DNA from: Ornithinimicrobium sp. CNJ-824
GTDB taxonomy: Bacteria > Actinomycetota > Actinomycetes > Actinomycetales > Dermatophilaceae
Assembly (NCBI RefSeq): GCF_001942405.1
Contig: NZ_MKKA01000009.1
Location: forward strand, 2,453 to 66,452
DNA: 64,000 nucleotides
Reading direction: 5' to 3'
In this document: positions 1 through 6,830 of the stretch, in pieces
How the letters are laid out: each line of letters starts with the position of its first letter
Numbering within the stretch: the first letter of the stretch is position 1
Notes under the pieces: generated by a model
Databases searched by the model: none
Told to the model about the DNA's origin: nothing
What the model saw: the letters and a program-made list of their open reading frames with translations, nothing else
Made by a program: the position numbers and the translations under genes

Positions 1-1413
1 GGGGAAATGGGGCAAGCACTACTCCTGCTCTTACTCGTCGAGCCGGACTGGTTGAAAGATCTGCCTCTTGCCATTCCTTCGGTGCGACAAAGGTTGGGCA
101 GGCTATGTGTCGCAGCCATTCGCGGAGAAGGCCAGGGGGGAGGTGTTAGCAAATGGGCGGCGTCCGCACTCCTGAGAGCGGTGTCTAAAGAAGTGTTCCT
201 TGATTCTTTCGCTTTACTCTTCATGGCTTGTAATGAGCATGAGGTGCGCTGGGAGTTGATCCTGGGGATGCACACCTTATCCAGCCGTCCATACCACCAG
301 ACTCAAGGGGTACAATCTAGAATCGCCGCGGCGTGTCTTGATGCGCAGAGCCAGATTTTGCCACACGAAGAAGAGTCCGGTGCCATGATCGACACTTTGC
401 AGAGGATGGAGCGGTCAGCGAGGTCGCGCGAGCGTGCCGCGACGCGTCCGACCATGCAATCCGCGTGGCAGGCACTACGAAGAGATTATAGGGCACTTTT
501 TGCTCGTCATCCTGCCATCGCTGGGGATGCGCTCATTGTTGTTGACGCACTCGACGGGCCCAGTATCCGCGAACAAGGACGCATCGGTGGTTCGTGGAAG
601 CCGCCGGGCGGATGGGACAGTGTCCGTGCCGCTTGGCGAAACTGTTCTGACTATATCGGGACTCAGGTTGTACCCAATCTTCCCTTTGTACGTCCCATTA
701 TCGAAGTATACCTGGACATGGAGAATTCGTGGGGTATGCGCCGTAGGGCAGAGGTGTTGTTGGATTCTCATGAAATGTCGCTGCTGAAGCTACAAACTCT
801 GGACCGAGGTATGGAGGCGCTTGAGAACGACACGCTGGGCGAGCAAGATCGGAATGACTTGGCGGACCTATTCAGGGATTGGTTTGCCAGCGTATTGGAA
901 GCTCCCGTGGGACGTGGCCCTACCGGCGATGCTGAAGACGCGGCTTACCTCTACCGGGCGTTGGAGCGGTGCCCGGCGAATGTGGAAAAGGTCTGGGCTG
1001 AAGCCCGGACGAGGCTCATTGCGGAAGGTACTGAACCGGTTTTCGCGGGAGCCTCCATCCCCGCGGATATGGTGTTTTGCGACAGGATGGTACTGCGTGA
1101 TGCGCTGGTCCACGTTATGGAGAACGTCTACTCAACGAGGCACAGAGGGAGGCGACGCGAGCGGCGGGTTATCGAGGTGTCTCACAAGGTGGCCAAAGGG
1201 CAGCTTGTGCTCGAGATCAAAAATACCGGTACAGAGGAGGCGGAGTATCCTGGCCAAGGCATGAGTCGCTTCGATGGTTTGCTCGGGAATTTTGGGGGCT
1301 CGCTGAAAGGGTCACCCAGCGATGGAAGGCCGTTTACATACGTAGCTACACTCGTTCTGCCGTTGTGGAACGGAGTGCAGGAGGAATATAATGAAGACGC
1401 TAGTAATCGTTGA
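1..1413 (+). CDS. Soluble histidine-kinase-like ATPase, candidate DtcA-type sensor of a Detocs-like system (5' end may lie outside the window)
   Basis: The first ATG is at 7, but the frame is open to the window edge, so the true start may be upstream. The product is at least 468 residues. The last ~110 residues look like a GHKL/HATPase_c fold: an N-box-like segment (LRDALVHVMENVYS, ~residues 362-375), then LEIKNTG as the G1-box, and a Gly-rich stretch (LLGNFGGSLKG) before a final hydrophobic strand. No membrane segment is visible, so this is a cytosolic kinase or sensor. The ~350-residue N-terminal part is helical and unrecognised, and I could not assign a phosphoacceptor His. The gene overlaps the next one by 23 bases, so they are translationally coupled. 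Together with the downstream receiver-phosphorylase it fits a defensive two-component system (inference). Base composition is lower in GC than the chromosome after 4331. Confidence 0.6.
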   Translation, partial: GEMGQALLLLLLVEPDWLKDLPLAIPSVRQRLGRLCVAAIRGEGQGGGVSKWAASALLRAVSKEVFLDSFALLFMACNEHEVRWELILGMHTLSSRPYHQTQGVQSRIAAACLDAQSQILPHEEESGAMIDTLQRMERSARSRERAATRPTMQSAWQALRRDYRALFARHPAIAGDALIVVDALDGPSIREQGRIGGSWKPPGGWDSVRAAWRNCSDYIGTQVVPNLPFVRPIIEVYLDMENSWGMRRRAEVLLDSHEMSLLKLQTLDRGMEALENDTLGEQDRNDLADLFRDWFASVLEAPVGRGPTGDAEDAAYLYRALERCPANVEKVWAEARTRLIAEGTEPVFAGASIPADMVFCDRMVLRDALVHVMENVYSTRHRGRRRERRVIEVSHKVAKGQLVLEIKNTGTEEAEYPGQGMSRFDGLLGNFGGSLKGSPSDGRPFTYVATLVLPLWNGVQEEYNEDASNR

Positions 1414-1955
1414 CGACAAAGACGATGCGCGACAGATTTACGCGCGAAACTTGAAACTACAGTTGGCACCGCTCTTGGGGGGGTATTGATGTCAAGGAGT
1501 TTGATCAGCCCTTAGACGCAATCGAATATCTTATGGGGCCGAACAATCCAGCGGACATTGTGGTCGTTGACATGTTCTTTCCGCCGGAGGACGACCCTGG
1601 GGCAGCTGCGGAGGATCATGTACCGCGGGGCCTCGACGTCATTCAAGTGGGTCATCGCCGAGGCGCGGTAGTTGTCGGCTTGTCCATCGGGAATGTTAAT
1701 CGTTTTCCGGACCTTGAAAATGACGCCAAGAACGCTGGTGCTCACCTCTTTGCTTACAGGCAAAAGATACAGGATCCGACGAAATATGGATGGGCTCACT
1801 TCTCTCAAGATATTGCTGACCTGGTTGACGTTCAGTATAGGGTGGGCGACGACCGTGCCTCTGGTGTTTCCGCATCAAGCGACCACATTCTGGTCTTTGT
1901 TGCGTTGGCGGCGGAACTGGATGTTCTAAAAGGTCGATGGGGGGTTGCAGAATAG
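1391..1955 (+). CDS. Response-regulator receiver domain, N-terminal part of a receiver-nucleoside phosphorylase fusion (frameshifted)
   Basis: ATG at 1391 begins MKTLVIVDDKDDARQIY, the usual receiver start with the acidic DD pair. After ~31 codons the frame breaks in a G7 run (1477-1483). Dropping one G joins it to a frame reading GIDVKEFDQPLDAIEYL and then IVVVDMFFPPEDD, where VVVDMFFPP is the expected phosphoacceptor Asp strand. The receiver continues to ~1860 and then runs into DHILVFVALAAELDVLKG, which is the first strand and helix of a nucleoside-phosphorylase fold. The receiver is therefore fused to the phosphorylase domain encoded from 1945. A second break (G6 run, 1939-1944) again needs one G removed. 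As written, the ORF stops at 1489 and reopens. I infer one protein of ~410 residues, most like the DtcC effector of Detocs. Confidence 0.6.
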
Positions 1956-2637
1956 AATGGGGGATGCAACTTGGGACGGCAAGTTGCCTGGCTCAGGTCT
2001 CGCGGTTAGGGTTTTGCCGGGCCATGGACCAGGGCGTGTGCGATCAGCAGTTACGGTAATGCACTATCTGCACACAGTGGATACGGAGAATCTACTATCT
2101 GTTTGGGTTGTCGGCATCGCTGGCGGCTTCGAGGAGCAAGATGTGGCGCTAGGGGACGTGCTTGTGCCGGACGTTGTGGTTGATCTGGGCACACGAAAGT
2201 TGCTTGGAGACGAACCGCCGGAATTTCGGCTACAGCCTTCTCCAGTGAACGGCAAACTTCTTCATTTTCTTCGTTCTGGCGACTTCGATGACGCTCTTTG
2301 GTACCAATCCGTTTCAGATTTGCCGCTTTACCCGCAGAGGGTCCGGCCGTCGCTAAAGATGGGGGAGGGTATCGTTTGCGCTGATGAAGTCGTGGCAAGT
2401 GACGAGTGGCGCCAAGAACTCATTGAGGCTTGGCCGAAGGTGACGGGTGTCGAGATGGAGGCTGGGGGCGTTGCGGCCGCTCTATTGCAGACTGCTACCG
2501 CTCGCCCCTTTTGCGTGGTAAGGGGGGTGTCGGACCACGCCGATCCACTGAAGTCTGATACCTCTTGGCGTGTCCATGCGATGAACGCCGCGGCTATCTT
2601 GGTCGAGTTGTCCGCCGTGGCTGTAAGCCGGGAATGA
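1945..2637 (+). CDS. Nucleoside phosphorylase/ATP-nucleosidase-like effector domain (C-terminal part of the receiver fusion)
   Basis: This is a PNP/UDP-phosphorylase superfamily domain. Hallmarks are VVGIAGGFEEQDVALGDVLVPD (nucleoside/phosphate-binding loop and following strand, ~residues 53-74), VEMEAGGVAAALLQTA (the Met-Glu purine/ribose-binding segment) and VVRGVSDHADPLKSDTSW (catalytic Asp loop), then a closing helix. The ORF opens at a TTG, which is unlikely to be a true start. Its missing first strand (ILVFVALAAELDVLKG) is encoded just upstream in the frame that precedes it, so this is the C-terminal half of the fusion starting at 1391. Related domains in Detocs, and in some CBASS and AVAST systems, are known to cleave ATP to adenine and ribose triphosphate on infection. 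The same activity here is inferred from architecture. A housekeeping MTA/SAH nucleosidase is less likely because of the receiver fusion and kinase partner. Confidence 0.7.
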   Translation: MQNRMGDATWDGKLPGSGLAVRVLPGHGPGRVRSAVTVMHYLHTVDTENLLSVWVVGIAGGFEEQDVALGDVLVPDVVVDLGTRKLLGDEPPEFRLQPSPVNGKLLHFLRSGDFDDALWYQSVSDLPLYPQRVRPSLKMGEGIVCADEVVASDEWRQELIEAWPKVTGVEMEAGGVAAALLQTATARPFCVVRGVSDHADPLKSDTSWRVHAMNAAAILVELSAVAVSRE

Positions 2638-2713
2638 TCGAGGTCCCTTGAGGGATAACCAGCTTTGTGAGCTAGGCCGGTGTGGAGGGAGGGCCCGGCG
2701 GCGCACCCAGTGC

Positions 2714-2757
2714 GTTTGACCGGCGGGTGCAGACGCATGATTCTGCGGTCATCTAGT
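2714..2757. repeat. Left copy of a ~44-bp imperfect direct repeat flanking the ISL3 element
   Basis: This reads gtttgaccggcgggtgcaga and onward, and is clearly related to 3973-4016 (gttttgacggcgggcgcaga and onward) in the same orientation. On the minus strand both copies can encode HASAPA followed by a similar short peptide, so they may be remnants of the same duplicated coding end. The right copy directly abuts the IS terminal repeat; the left copy is separated from the IS by ~17 bases. Confidence 0.5.
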
Positions 2758-2774
2758 ATCGCTCTCGTCTTGAG

Positions 2775-3972
2775 GATCTTCACCATGCAGGGTGTAGTTG
2801 GGGTCTGAATCCGCCGACCTCCAGGAGCGCTCTTGCGATGTAGTGGGTGAGGTACGGAATCCCAGGGCAGGCCGCGTAGGTGCTCGAGACCTCCCTTCAC
2901 GGTCTCGGTAAGCCATTGCTCGTGCGGGCCGCTCGAAGTAGGCCAGGACATCACAGACGCGTCTGGCCAGGGTTGCGGCCGAGCTTGCGCAGCCGATCAG
3001 CGGCCTGGGTGCGCCGTCGGTCGGTGAGGGCGTCGATCACCGAGCGCATCCCGATGTGGCCGCCTGCGCGGTCGGGGTCACGGTAGGCGGAGATCATGCG
3101 CTGGTAGATGCCCCAGGGCAGCTCGACCTGCAGGTGCTCATCGCTGGCGAAGAGCCGCTTTGTCGAAGCGCTCCTGCTGGCGTTCGGTGAGCAGGTCGGC
3201 TCCGGTGTGCAGGGTCCGCCGCGCGGCGGAGAAGGGGTCGTCCTTGCGGCTCCGGTGCCCAGCTCGGGAGGGCCCGGTCTCGTCGCGGACCGGGATGAGG
3301 TCGATGACAGGGTGCCGTACTTGTCTCCCTTCCTGGTGTGCCGCCAGACGTGCTCATCCGCGCCGATCACGGGGACACCGTTGAGGCGGCCCGGGTCGGC
3401 GATGGGCCGCCGTTGTCCTTCGGCCAGGACTGCCTCGTTGGCGGTGTTCCAGGAGACGGCGAGTCCTTCGGCGACGCGTGCTATGGACCGGTGCTGGGTC
3501 ACGATGCCGACCAGTGCCCACCGCGGTCCGACGCGGGAGGTCTTCGCGCGCGGCTCGGCCGGGGCGGTGGTGTCCTGGCGCCACACGGACCCACTCTTTG
3601 CACCGGTACCGGCGCAGGGTGACCAGCAGGGTCGTGGGGCGCCACCCGAACGGTTCGTGCGCCCAGCTCTCGGGTCACCGTGTCGCGCGGGACGCCCTGG
3701 CAGTCGCACCGCCGGACCAGTCGTCCGGTCCGGTTTGACGACCCGGCAGGCGAACACCGCACGATCAGGTTCGAGAGCTGGCCAGTGACTTCCACCTGGC
3801 CGTTGACACCCAGGCGGGTGCAGGTGGTCAGGTAAGGGCGCGTGAAGGTAGCGTCAGGCACGTCGAGGTCTGTCGGATGGGTGGTGTGAGAACTTCCATC
3901 ACCAGAAGACCTCGACACCTACCCCCGGACCGGCGCGCCAGCGCGCACTACACCCTCATTTGTGAAAGGCCC
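2775..3972 (-). mobile_element. Degenerate ISL3-family insertion sequence
   Basis: Imperfect terminal inverted repeats bound the element. The left end (2775-2798) contains TTCAC then GGGTGTAGT. The right end (3947-3972), read from outside on the minus strand, contains TTTCAC then GGGTGTAGT with the same 6-base spacing. These match the terminal pattern I associate with actinobacterial ISL3 elements. The length of ~1.2 kb is shorter than the usual ~1.3-1.5 kb, in keeping with an internal deletion in the transposase. The element lies inside the lower-GC island, just inboard of the tRNA-derived attachment site. No clean target duplication was seen at the ends. Confidence 0.65.
2780..3870 (-). pseudogene. 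ISL3-family transposase, multiply frameshifted and internally deleted
   Basis: Pieces in several minus-strand frames line up with one ISL3 transposase. The N-terminal part reads DATFTRPYLTT, then the zinc-binding segment with RRCDCQGVPRDTVTREL. A middle part reads RVGPRWALVGIVTQHRS, SWNTANEAVLAEGQR and DEHVWRHTRKGDKYGT (family hallmark). The C-terminal part reads LFASDEHLQVELPWGIYQRM and ends in HYIARALLEVGGFRPQLHP with a stop at 2780-2782. Between GDKYGT and the RRTLHTGADLL-like segment, the stretch normally holding further catalytic residues is missing. At least four frame changes are needed. The gene cannot make active transposase. Unlike the single indels elsewhere in the window, this one is truly decayed. 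Confidence 0.75.
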
Positions 3973-4283
3973 GTTTTGACGGCGGGCGCAGATGCGTGAG
4001 CCTGCAGCTCACCGAAGACCACTCCCGTTCTAGCGCGCCGCGACGAACGCGCCGAGCAACGATCCCTGAGGGACCCGGCGGCCCGGGCGGCCTGCCCTTG
4101 ACCGGTGGAATCATGGGTGGCAGCAGCACTCATCGCAGGCTCCTCCTCAAGCAGATCGACGAGACAACTATTCCGACCGTACCCCAGAAAAGTACTGCAG
4201 TGGGGTACGCAATCGGCGCGATCCGGTGTGCTCTGCAACGCCCTGAACTGCAGGAATGGGTTCTCGCGTGCCCCAGACGTGGA
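3973..4283. other. Non-coding end of the island between the IS and the tRNA fragment
   Basis: No convincing gene. It begins with the right copy of the ~44-bp direct repeat (3973-4016), which abuts the IS end. A short minus-strand ORF here (to 4238) has no recognisable domain. The A/T content rises around 4160-4210. No integrase gene is present on this side, so if the island encodes one it lies left of the window. Confidence 0.5.
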
Positions 4284-4330
4284 CTTTGCAAGCAGGGGGT
4301 TAGGGGTTCGAGTCCCCTCGCCTCCACCCA
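4284..4330 (+). repeat. tRNA-Ala(TGC) 3'-half fragment: island attachment site (att)
   Basis: This stretch starts inside an anticodon loop with TGC, continues with the 3' anticodon stem (GCAGG), then a T-arm (AGGGG-TTCGAGT-CCCCT), the 3' acceptor strand CGCCTCC and discriminator A at 4326. The matching 5' half (GGAGGCG, D-arm) is absent upstream; similarity to a tRNA stops abruptly at ~4284. A strong terminator follows at once (4335-4367), as expected for the native 3' flank of the tRNA gene. The simplest reading is that an element integrated in the anticodon loop. The functional tRNA-Ala was rebuilt at its far end, outside the window, and this duplicated 3' half marks the near end. Confidence 0.75.
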
Positions 4331-4334
4331 GGTC

Positions 4335-4367
4335 AGAGGCCCTTCCCGGGATCCGGGAGGGGCCTCT
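4335..4367 (+). terminator. Rho-independent-type hairpin of the original tRNA-Ala locus
   Basis: A 15-bp stem (agaggcccttcccgg / ccgggaggggcctct, one G-T pair) closes a 3-base loop. It lies 8 bases beyond the tRNA-Ala 3' fragment. It could also serve the converging minus-strand gene that ends at 4375. Confidence 0.7.
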
Positions 4368-4374
4368 GTCGTGG

Positions 4375-4887
4375 TCAGCTATCGCCCACCACGGTCAGGC
4401 CCGACCCGCCACCGCCCACCAGGGTGAACGGTGCGTCGCGGGACGTCACCGGCAGGCTGACTACGCCTCCGTCCGGGACGACCCGCACACCGAGCAGGAA
4501 CGCCGTCACCCGCAGGTGCAGACGACCATCAGCACCGCAGCCCAGGACGGCCGGACCTCTGGCCGGTCCCCGCGCAAGGTGCGGGACGGCATCGGGGTAG
4601 GGGTCGTCATACGCCTGCGCCCGTCCCTCGTGCGCCTCGAACAGCTGCTCCACCTCGGACCACGACCTCGCCCGCACCGACCCGGCCACGGCCGCGACCA
4701 CACCGTCGAGGGTGGACGCCACGGTCGCTGCACCCGTCCGGCCGGTCACCGTCCACCCGTGGGGGCCGCCGGTCACCCGGACGCCGTGGCCGACCGAGGT
4801 GAGCAACCGCGCGACGTCCCCGCGCCGGCGCGGGCCGGACACGAAGGGCGTCGCCCAGTCCGTGGCCGACCCGCAGGCGCCGCACAC
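4375..4887 (-). CDS. Hypothetical protein with N-terminal CxxC
   Basis: 170 residues with ATG at 4887, 18 bases after the deacetylase stop, so probably last in an asparaginase-deacetylase-this gene operon. The start, MCGACGSATDW, has a CxxC that could be half of a zinc ribbon, but I see no second pair. The rest is a mixed alpha/beta sequence with no membrane segment and no motif I recognise; a Gly-rich stretch (LVGGGGSGLTVVGDS) ends the protein. The composition is that of the host chromosome. Function unknown. The call rests on codon bias and operon position. Confidence 0.55.
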   Translation of the reverse strand: MCGACGSATDWATPFVSGPRRRGDVARLLTSVGHGVRVTGGPHGWTVTGRTGAATVASTLDGVVAAVAGSVRARSWSEVEQLFEAHEGRAQAYDDPYPDAVPHLARGPARGPAVLGCGADGRLHLRVTAFLLGVRVVPDGGVVSLPVTSRDAPFTLVGGGGSGLTVVGDS

Positions 4888-4905
4888 CTGAACCGACCTC
4901 CGGCC

Positions 4906-5784
4906 TCAGCCGCGAGGGAACCGCTGCTTGAAGTCCTCGGCGATGGTGTTGAACTGGGCCCACTCCACGGCGTCGTGCTGGTTGATGTGCTCGATGAGGC
5001 GCTCGAGCATGAGCAGCACCTGCGGCCGTCCGGACACATCCGGGTGCACGGTCATCGTGAACACCCCGTAGTCCATCTCCCGGTAGACCCAGTCGAACTG
5101 GTCGCGCCACAGCTGCTCGATGTCCCGCGGGCTGACGAAGCCATGGCTGTTGGGGCTGGCCTTGATGAACATCATCGGCGGCAGGTCGTCGAGGTACCAG
5201 TTGGCCGGGATCTCCACCAGGTCCGTCTCCTCGCCACGTACCAGCGGCTTCATCCAGTCGCGGGCGTCCTTGTCGTAGTCGATCTTGGTCCAGGAGTCGC
5301 CGACCCGGACGTAGTACGGCTCGAAGTCGCGGTGCATGAGCGAGTGGTCGTAGGTGATGCCGCGGTCCAGCAGCAGCTCGTTGGTGATCGGGGAGAACTC
5401 CCACCACGGCGCCACGTAACCCGTGGGCCGTCGGCCCGCACGCCGCTCGATCAGGTCGATGCAGTAGTCGAGGATCTCGGTCTCCTGCTCGCGGCTCATC
5501 GCGATCGGGTTCTCGTGGCTGTAGCCGTGCGCCCCGATCTCGTGGCCGGCTGCGACGACCTCGTCGAACTCCTCCGGGAAGGTCTCGATCGAGTGCCCCG
5601 GCCAGAACCACGTCGACGGCAGGTCGTAGCGCTCCAGCAGCCGCCGCATTCGCGGCACCCCGACCTCCCCGGCGAACATGCCGCGGGAGATGTCGCACGG
5701 GGAGTCCTCCCCGCCGTAGGAGCCCAGCCACCCCCCGACGGCGTCGACGTCGATGCCCAGGGCCACGTAGATCTTCTTGCTCAT
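4906..5784 (-). CDS. Polysaccharide deacetylase family protein (NodB homology, HpPgdA/PuuE-like)
   Basis: 292 residues. NodB-type metal-dependent deacetylase: LGIDVDA (~residues 8-14) supplies the catalytic/metal Asp pair and [10 protein letters not shown] (~86-95) the metal-binding Hxxx[15 protein letters not shown] and [11 protein letters not shown] are segments of the family branch containing Helicobacter PgdA and the allantoinase-like PuuE proteins, rather than secreted chitin deacetylases. No signal peptide is present, so it acts in the cytoplasm, probably on an N-acyl or cyclic amide substrate. A good ribosome site (GAGAGGTAG) lies just before the ATG. Upstream is an L-asparaginase in the same orientation, 50 bases away, which suggests shared nitrogen scavenging (inference). 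Confidence 0.8.
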
Positions 5785-5834
5785 TGCCAGCTACCTCTCT
5801 GTCGGTTGCGGTGTGCAGGATCGTCGGAGCCAGG

Positions 5835-6830
5835 TCAGGCGTAGCGGTCCACGAGCTCCTGGGTGACCTTCTCGCCCGTGGATCGCAGCGCGGCCAGCAG
5901 CAGCCGTGCGTGGAACAGCGGCAGCGCCCCCATGGAGAGAGCGCCGGCGTCGAGCAGGTCACGGGCGCCGCCGTTGCCGTAGAGCGGCGCGACTGGACCC
6001 TCGGCGACGCGGGTCGAGACGCCCACGGTCACCCCCTGCGCCACCGACTCGGTCACCCACCGCAGCAGCGCGTGGTTGCCGTTGCCCGCCCCTGTGCCGG
6101 CCAGGACGACCGCCTCGGCGCCCGCCTCGACCGCGGCCCGGGCCAGGGCGGCGTCGGCCCCCGGGTGCAGGGTCACGACGTCCACCCGCGTCGTGTCGAA
6201 CCGGGCCGTCAAGGACAACGGCGAGGTATGCCGCACGGGCCGGGCGTGCAGGCGGACTCCGTCCTCCCCCACGGTCCCCAGCGGCCCCCCGTCGGACACC
6301 GCGAACGGCTGCGGGGCCAGGGTGTGCGCCTTGCGGAACCGGCCGCCGGGCAGCGCCAGCCCCGCGAAGACCAGCAGCGGGCCCATCCCCTCCGCATGCG
6401 GGTCGGCAGCGACCACCACGGCGTCCCGCAGGTTTCGCGGCCCGTCGGTGTCGGCGTGGTCGGCCGACCGCTGGGCGCCGGTGAGCACGACGGGCTTGTC
6501 GCTGCGCTGGCACAGGGACAGCAGGAACCCGGTCTCCTCGACCGTGTCCGTGCCGTGGGTGACGACCACCCCGTCGACGTCGTCGCGGGCGACCGCGGCG
6601 GCGACCGCCTCGACGACCTGCCGCAGGTGCCGGTGCTCCAGCAGGTAGGACCCGAGCGTGAACACGTCGTCGGTCTCCACCTCGACGCCCTCGGGGGCCA
6701 GCTCGCCGAGCAGGTCCCGGGCGGTAAGGCTGGCCACGGCGCCTGACCCGTCCGCGCTCGTGGAGGCGATCGTGCCGCCCGTGCCCAGCACGAGCACCCG
6801 CCGGGGTCCGCCACGGCTCCGATCGGTCAT
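5835..6830 (-). CDS. L-asparaginase
   Basis: 331 residues. It hydrolyses L-asparagine to aspartate and ammonia. Both catalytic threonine motifs are present: GTGGTIAST near the N-terminus (~residues 16-24) and THGTDTVEE at ~95-103, with the Thr-Asp pair. The C-terminal lobe contains AGTGAGNGNHALL. No signal peptide is visible, so it is probably cytoplasmic. The much longer open frame upstream is a shadow of mscS. I chose ATG at 6830 because it is preceded by AGGAGTGG and begins at the first conserved strand (RRVLVLGTGGT). It is first in an apparent operon with the deacetylase at 5784-4906, and divergent from the MscS gene. Confidence 0.9.
   Translation of the reverse strand: MTDRSRGGPRRVLVLGTGGTIASTSADGSGAVASLTARDLLGELAPEGVEVETDDVFTLGSYLLEHRHLRQVVEAVAAAVARDDVDGVVVTHGTDTVEETGFLLSLCQRSDKPVVLTGAQRSADHADTDGPRNLRDAVVVAADPHAEGMGPLLVFAGLALPGGRFRKAHTLAPQPFAVSDGGPLGTVGEDGVRLHARPVRHTSPLSLTARFDTTRVDVVTLHPGADAALARAAVEAGAEAVVLAGTGAGNGNHALLRWVTESVAQGVTVGVSTRVAEGPVAPLYGNGGARDLLDAGALSMGALPLFHARLLLAALRSTGEKVTQELVDRYA

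Follow-up and report, generated by a model that had tools for sequence, protein, structure and literature searches.

A putative Detocs-like two-component operon as right-end cargo of an integrative mobilizable element in Ornithinimicrobium sp. CNJ-824

We analysed a stretch of 64,000 nucleotides from Ornithinimicrobium sp. CNJ-824 (the window), which corresponds to positions 2453-66452 of contig C9 (NZ_MKKA01000009.1) in an assembly of 3.45 Mb and 62 contigs. Its left end carries a kinase-like gene (1-1413, forward strand), followed on the same strand by a gene in three pieces (1391-1489, 1476-1955 and 1933-2637) that reads as a putative receiver domain joined to a nucleoside-phosphorylase (PNP) domain. 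This gene order resembles that of Detocs, in which a kinase (DtcA) is accompanied by a receiver protein that acts as a buffer (DtcB) and by a receiver-PNP fusion (DtcC), and the kinase switches on an ATP-destroying enzyme. Positions 1-2637 have a GC content of 56.3%, compared with 73.7% to the right of position 4330, and the second codon position has the lowest GC in each of the four pieces (1-1413, 1391-1489, 1476-1955 and 1933-2637).

The kinase frame is open to the window edge and ends in a TGA stop at 1411-1413. A run of 248 N at C9:2205-2452, either an assembly gap or a masked stretch, ends directly before window base 1, and since this base is the first one after the run, the N-terminus of the kinase is absent from the data; the initial annotation, which had called it unrecognised, is corrected on this point. 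In the HATPase-like C-terminus we identified by eye an N-box (1102-1137), a G1-like box with Asn in place of Asp (1213-1230) and a G2-like box (1252-1272). This GHKL part has no family assignment from Pfam, NCBIfam or PADLOC. Against a profile built from 17 HATPase domains of the same genome, the kinase C-terminus gave an E-value of 0.0068, and none of 200 shuffles reached its score; the corresponding GHKL end of DtcA from a reference Detocs locus (L117) scores no better against that profile (hhalign E 0.024). The AF2 model of the kinase, built without relatives, has a mean pLDDT of 45 and is unusable. Weak profile scores, motifs and gene order thus tentatively suggest a GHKL-type kinase. Its 3' end overlaps the receiver-like gene by 23 nt, and the ATG of the latter at 1391 is preceded by AGGAGGAA. 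The open frame and its overlap with the next gene are as first described; the GHKL assignment is weaker than first worded.

The candidate receiver begins in the piece at 1391-1489, which overlaps the kinase stop and contains an acidic pair (DD, 1412-1417), and continues in another frame at 1476-1955. The latter piece holds the presumed phospho-Asp codon (1569-1571, in VVVDMFF) and, towards its end, the start of the PNP domain with the presumed catalytic Glu codon (1914-1916). The fusion spans two frame breaks, located at or near a G7 at 1477, the sole G7 of the window, and a G6 at 1939, and we searched the pieces separately. Pfam, NCBIfam and PADLOC likewise give no family for the receiver part. 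A model of Detocs DtcB/DtcC receivers matched the main piece at an E-value of 7e-4 and the first piece at 0.015 (in a search of 4 sequences), and, in a comparison of the main piece with the genome's own ordinary receivers, one of 200 shuffles outscored the real sequence. The AF2 model of the receiver piece, again built without relatives, has a mean pLDDT of 42 and is likewise unusable. Weak profile scores, motifs and the order of the pieces hint at a receiver, and phase variation at the G7 is possible. The earlier claim that a receiver is fused to a PNP domain after repair of two G-run frameshifts therefore stands for the breaks near the G7 and G6 and for the PNP domain, which profiles recognise, and is weaker for the receiver. 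Since the pieces are collinear with DtcC, we do not consider the receiver and PNP frames to be unrelated genes, an outcome the initial annotation had raised against itself.

The PNP/MTAN-fold domain (1933-2637, forward strand) is recognised by Pfam PF01048 (E 1.2e-12) and by the PADLOC models PDC-M60C (E 4e-13) and PN-superfamily effector (E 9.1e-10), which makes its fold family firm. The piece contains VEMEAGG at 2449-2469, the catalytic Asp codon at 2533-2535 and an effector-type Lys codon at 2551-2553. Some of the sequence scores point to a 5'-methylthioadenosine/S-adenosylhomocysteine (MTA/SAH) nucleosidase (MTAN): the NCBIfam model for this enzyme gives a better E-value (3.9e-15; 56 bits, below its cut-off of 169) than PDC-M60C, and 22 of 23 PDB matches are MTAN-type nucleosidases (best E 3.4e-7). 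A tree of 93 rows, by contrast, splits 40 effector-type from 52 MTAN-type rows (99/97, with a bootstrap that had not settled) and puts the window PNP on the effector side; its branch is long (3.28), and by path its nearest rows are L039 and L037 and not the DtcC clade. Trees alone are indecisive, because a 25-row tree supports its grouping with DtcC at only 23/4 and does not reject a grouping with MTANs (p-AU 0.09). A second feature is a Lys within 9 residues after an [SVA]D motif, present in 33/40 effector-type rows and 2/52 MTAN-type rows, where the groups are those drawn from the 93-row tree and one gene is counted twice (L066 and L112). Six of the seven effector-type rows scored as lacking this Lys have no stretch readable by the motif search (four of them DtcC), and one truly lacks it. 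The window motif reads SDHADPLKSD and so carries the effector-type Lys. Best matches to housekeeping MTA/SAH nucleosidases with no receiver fusion in homologues, which had been named beforehand as speaking against a Detocs-like reading, are in part what the NCBIfam and PDB scores return, whereas the larger tree and the Lys place the domain apart from the MTAN clade. The PNP is probably of the defence-effector type.

To the left of the N-run, C9:1-2204 carries further frames on the strand of the operon. A frame at C9:1-819, which has no Pfam match, overlaps by ATGA a second frame, which runs from 816 to 2204 with a break near a C7 at 1100. Pieces of this upstream gene match phosphoribosyltransferases weakly (Pfam E 0.16, NCBIfam E 0.026-0.21) near two loop-like motifs, VVLATGVIASGFT and VLVDWGAVTARTI, in which, by our own reading, the acidic residues of the PRPP loop are replaced; smaller cuts of the pieces have no Pfam match even at E≤10. 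The gene is possibly a tandem phosphoribosyltransferase-like one. Together with the N-run and the kinase frame it would span about 1,016 residues if the length of the run is right, and by the printed N count the two genes lie in different frames. Extending the contig leftwards, as had been proposed in order to find DtcB and the missing kinase end, therefore yielded same-strand frames, with the kinase N-terminus falling in the N-run; no receiver was matched in the upstream pieces by Pfam, NCBIfam or PADLOC, the N-run and contig end hiding sequence here. Separately, a short frame within C9:3-197 (L004:3-197) that contains HFPGTMVQIILLR and has no Pfam match looks like the end of another GHKL protein.

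The operon lies at the edge of a mobile element. On its right, a probable remnant of an ISL3-type insertion sequence (3546-3966, reverse strand) is 82% identical over 425 nt to L161:1524-1939; its assignment to ISL3 is our reading of a wider ORF (2951-3757) that has no Pfam match. A conserved element end follows at 4176-4283 (forward strand; 83-92% identity to element ends in L165, L171, L162 and L164) and adjoins the att site at 4284-4348 (forward strand). This site, made up of the 3' half of tRNA-Ala(TGC) and some 20 nt more, duplicates part of contig C62, where the tRNA-Ala is intact, with one indel between the copies. The assembly has two copies of the 24-base tRNA end, one at window position 4305 and one on C62, the latter closing the intact tRNA-Ala(TGC). 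ARAGORN detects no complete tRNA around 4.3 kb, so the tRNA att site that had been proposed consists of the 3' part alone. The C62 genes adjoining the intact tRNA include an integrase, a TrwC relaxase and an ISL3 transposase. The integrase is split into two frames (92% identical to that of a sister element over 426 residues, then 83% over 86), and there is no G/C run of ≥5 at the split. Both the left end of C9 and the right end of C62 are contig ends, and we infer that they are the two ends of one element. The att repeat, the integrase, the relaxase and the use of the same site in relatives make an integrative mobilizable element at tRNA-Ala(TGC) well supported, and, with the lower GC, agree with the earlier view of horizontal transfer at an island edge. 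In the same genome, the tRNA-Ala lies about 6.5 kb from a frame that we read as gyrB-like from a HATPase match.

TrwC-relaxase elements have integrated repeatedly at this tRNA in the genus, as seen around L161-L166, L170 and L171. The tRNA end is found, at ≤1 mismatch, in 10 of 18 genus genomes (own included), five of which have 2-3 copies, and relaxases at 78-85% identity adjoin the site in four genomes (G1294, G1303, G1309 and G1293). Three sampled sister elements (L161, L163 and L165) carry different defence-type cargo: all 8 proteins picked from them for looking like defence genes match PADLOC models at E≤1e-3, among them type I RM subunits, a HEC-06/DUF262-type protein, a PD-T4-6-like kinase, an Mrr-type protein, PDC-M03A (HipA by Pfam) and a DRT UG22-type reverse transcriptase (L163:13519-15174, E 1.6e-124). 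The ORF survey covered L161, L163, L165 and L170, leaving L162, L164, L166 and L171 aside. In the stretches surrounding tRNA-Ala (L141-L171, long in 7 genomes and short in others), tblastn at E≤1e-3 gave no relative of the kinase, the main receiver piece, the PNP or the upstream gene. As for other cargo of the element itself, two of its proteins on C62 have no PADLOC or Pfam match. A low-GC gene pair there (L139:6393-8521, one member NTPase-like by eye, no match to either database) is possibly further cargo. The deacetylase adjoining att, which we sought in relatives to show an empty site, is poorly conserved (matched in 9 of 28, own included).

We compared the operon with Detocs, a phage-defence system treated in PMC11249213. 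In the reference loci, DtcB lies between the kinase and DtcC in 8/8, and receiver precedes PNP in 8/8; at L117 the kinase, receiver and receiver-PNP proteins have 961, 148 and 389 residues and match PDC-M60A, B and C. PDC-M60C is a receiver-PNP profile whose full length fits the L117 DtcC and whose first 64 positions fit ordinary-looking receivers, and in the class of Thiohalocapsa it is matched over positions 1-400 in 1 of 369 genomes. The operon shares with Detocs a kinase-like gene followed by a putative receiver-PNP fusion, a PNP effector and a location on mobile DNA. It differs in four respects: its kinase is not detectably homologous to DtcA, it has no DtcB between kinase and effector, its PNP is not placed in the DtcC clade, and a possible phosphoribosyltransferase-like gene lies upstream. 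With its N-terminus missing from the query, the kinase has no PADLOC match, PDC-M60A included, at E≤1 and none of significance to an alignment of seven DtcA (hhalign probability 0.1%, hmmsearch E 0.3); the upstream pieces gave nothing significant against the same alignment by either program. The overlap of the kinase and receiver-PNP genes leaves DtcB without its usual slot. By its layout the operon would work like Detocs; the features examined do not make it a Detocs member, since both the DtcA-homologous kinase and the intervening DtcB fail. This agrees with the initial annotation, which had described the layout of Detocs with a kinase partner, seen no DtcB-like protein and allowed for a variant; of the profile comparisons it proposed, the one with DtcA was negative and the one with the DtcC-like PDC-M60C positive.

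The kinase was found in 1 of 198 genomes of the order and the upstream gene in 1 of 396 genomes of the phylum, in both cases the genome of origin. Plasmids contained no match to the kinase, the upstream gene, the PNP or the main receiver piece, phages none to the kinase, and viral contigs none to the kinase, the PNP alignment, one DtcC or the upstream gene. A search of the class with the PNP returned 3 of 394 genomes at E≤1e-9, own included, and the three PNP frames in the other two genomes show no receiver by reading. Among at least 66 genomic-contig loci, none has a PNP frame with a recognisable receiver, as judged with a model that scores the window receiver weakly. When 7,884 ORFs of the loci examined (own-operon loci left out) were searched by phmmer with the kinase, the main receiver piece and the upstream pieces, nothing fell below E 0.065. 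Searches of open-licence papers gave no description of the arrangement, a Detocs-related variant seen here in one instance. In the part of the DefensePredictor paper (PMC13092281) that concerns them, HATPase, REC and purine phosphorylase domains are predicted to serve defence; these are the same kinds of domain, and their arrangement is not stated there.

Our favoured explanation, held with moderate confidence, is that the operon forms the effector half of a Detocs-like two-component module for defence, which the integrative mobilizable element in tRNA-Ala carries as right-end cargo and which is broken in the copy as assembled. A soluble sensor kinase, perhaps with the upstream phosphoribosyltransferase-like domains either fused or separate, would detect infection and transfer a phosphate to the receiver-PNP protein, on its receiver Asp. 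The PNP domain, thereby set free, would remove the base of ATP or dATP, arresting the infected cell ahead of phage production. Because no stand-alone DtcB occupies the place it has in Detocs, any damping would come from elsewhere or be absent. A more speculative version, which we regard as improbable, makes the sensor a tandem degenerate phosphoribosyltransferase-like module that would read nucleotide pools disturbed by infection and drive the receiver-PNP protein directly without DtcB, maybe as part of one polypeptide of about 1,000 residues across the N-run.

Given the frame breaks in the receiver-PNP and upstream genes, the copy is either inactive or mis-sequenced, and the strongest competitor to our explanation takes them as real: a once-working Detocs-like cargo would have decayed within the element, beside an insertion-sequence remnant. 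We give this substantial weight, if less than an even chance. The integrase of the element is also split, away from any G/C run of ≥5, and homopolymer error is not obviously general, as 40 of 42 window G/C runs of ≥6 lie inside frames of ≥200 residues, a weak control because GC-rich DNA yields long open frames by chance. On the other hand, the operon breaks coincide with the sole G7 of the window, a G6 and, left of the window, a C7, next to both an N-run and a contig end, a place where the assembly is perhaps poorest; the second-position GC minimum persists in every piece, and the residues presumed to be catalytic are retained.

A genuine but strongly diverged Detocs, with a kinase beyond profile detection and DtcB in the N-run or off the contig, is fairly unlikely. 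The combined length of upstream gene, N-run and kinase frame is near the size of DtcA (961-1106 residues in 7 references), and the GHKL end of the L117 DtcA proved equally hard to detect; against this stand the absence of a significant DtcA match in the kinase or upstream pieces, the gene overlap that leaves no usual place for DtcB, and an upstream gene out of frame with the kinase by the printed N count. We think it very improbable that the locus is an ordinary two-component system beside, or fused to, a housekeeping MTA/SAH nucleosidase. The NCBIfam and PDB matches and the p-AU value described above would fit such an enzyme, whereas the Lys signature, the split in the 93-row tree and the position as low-GC cargo in an element family that carries defence genes argue for an effector. 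If the Detocs-like module is real, receiver-PNP effectors would be paired with more than one kinase lineage, the DtcB buffer would be dispensable, and the locus would allow a test of how self-harm is avoided in phosphorelay immunity. The locus further points to tRNA-Ala as an integration site in an actinobacterial genus, used by related mobilizable elements with different defence systems.

Other PNP effectors among the loci include a SAVED-PNP beside a CBASS cyclase (L124), a SLOG-PNP (L039; the SLOG label is our own reading, PADLOC ThsA E 0.0019), an HNH-PNP (L128), L037 and L038. These differ from the window operon in having no recognised receiver and other partners. L037, L038, L039 and L128 share the EME, Asp and Lys of the window PNP, and L037 and L039 are closest to it among the matches listed, at 33-36% identity. 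In L128, a stretch of NZ_KY000035.1, the effector-type PNP is held by a gene annotated as an HNH endonuclease (2692-4029); a second gene (4301-6756), cut by the end of the stretch, matches the alignment of DtcA proteins (E 1.9e-58), and the annotation shows no receiver gene separating the two. This HNH-PNP and DtcA-like pair is possibly a relative of Detocs with another layout.
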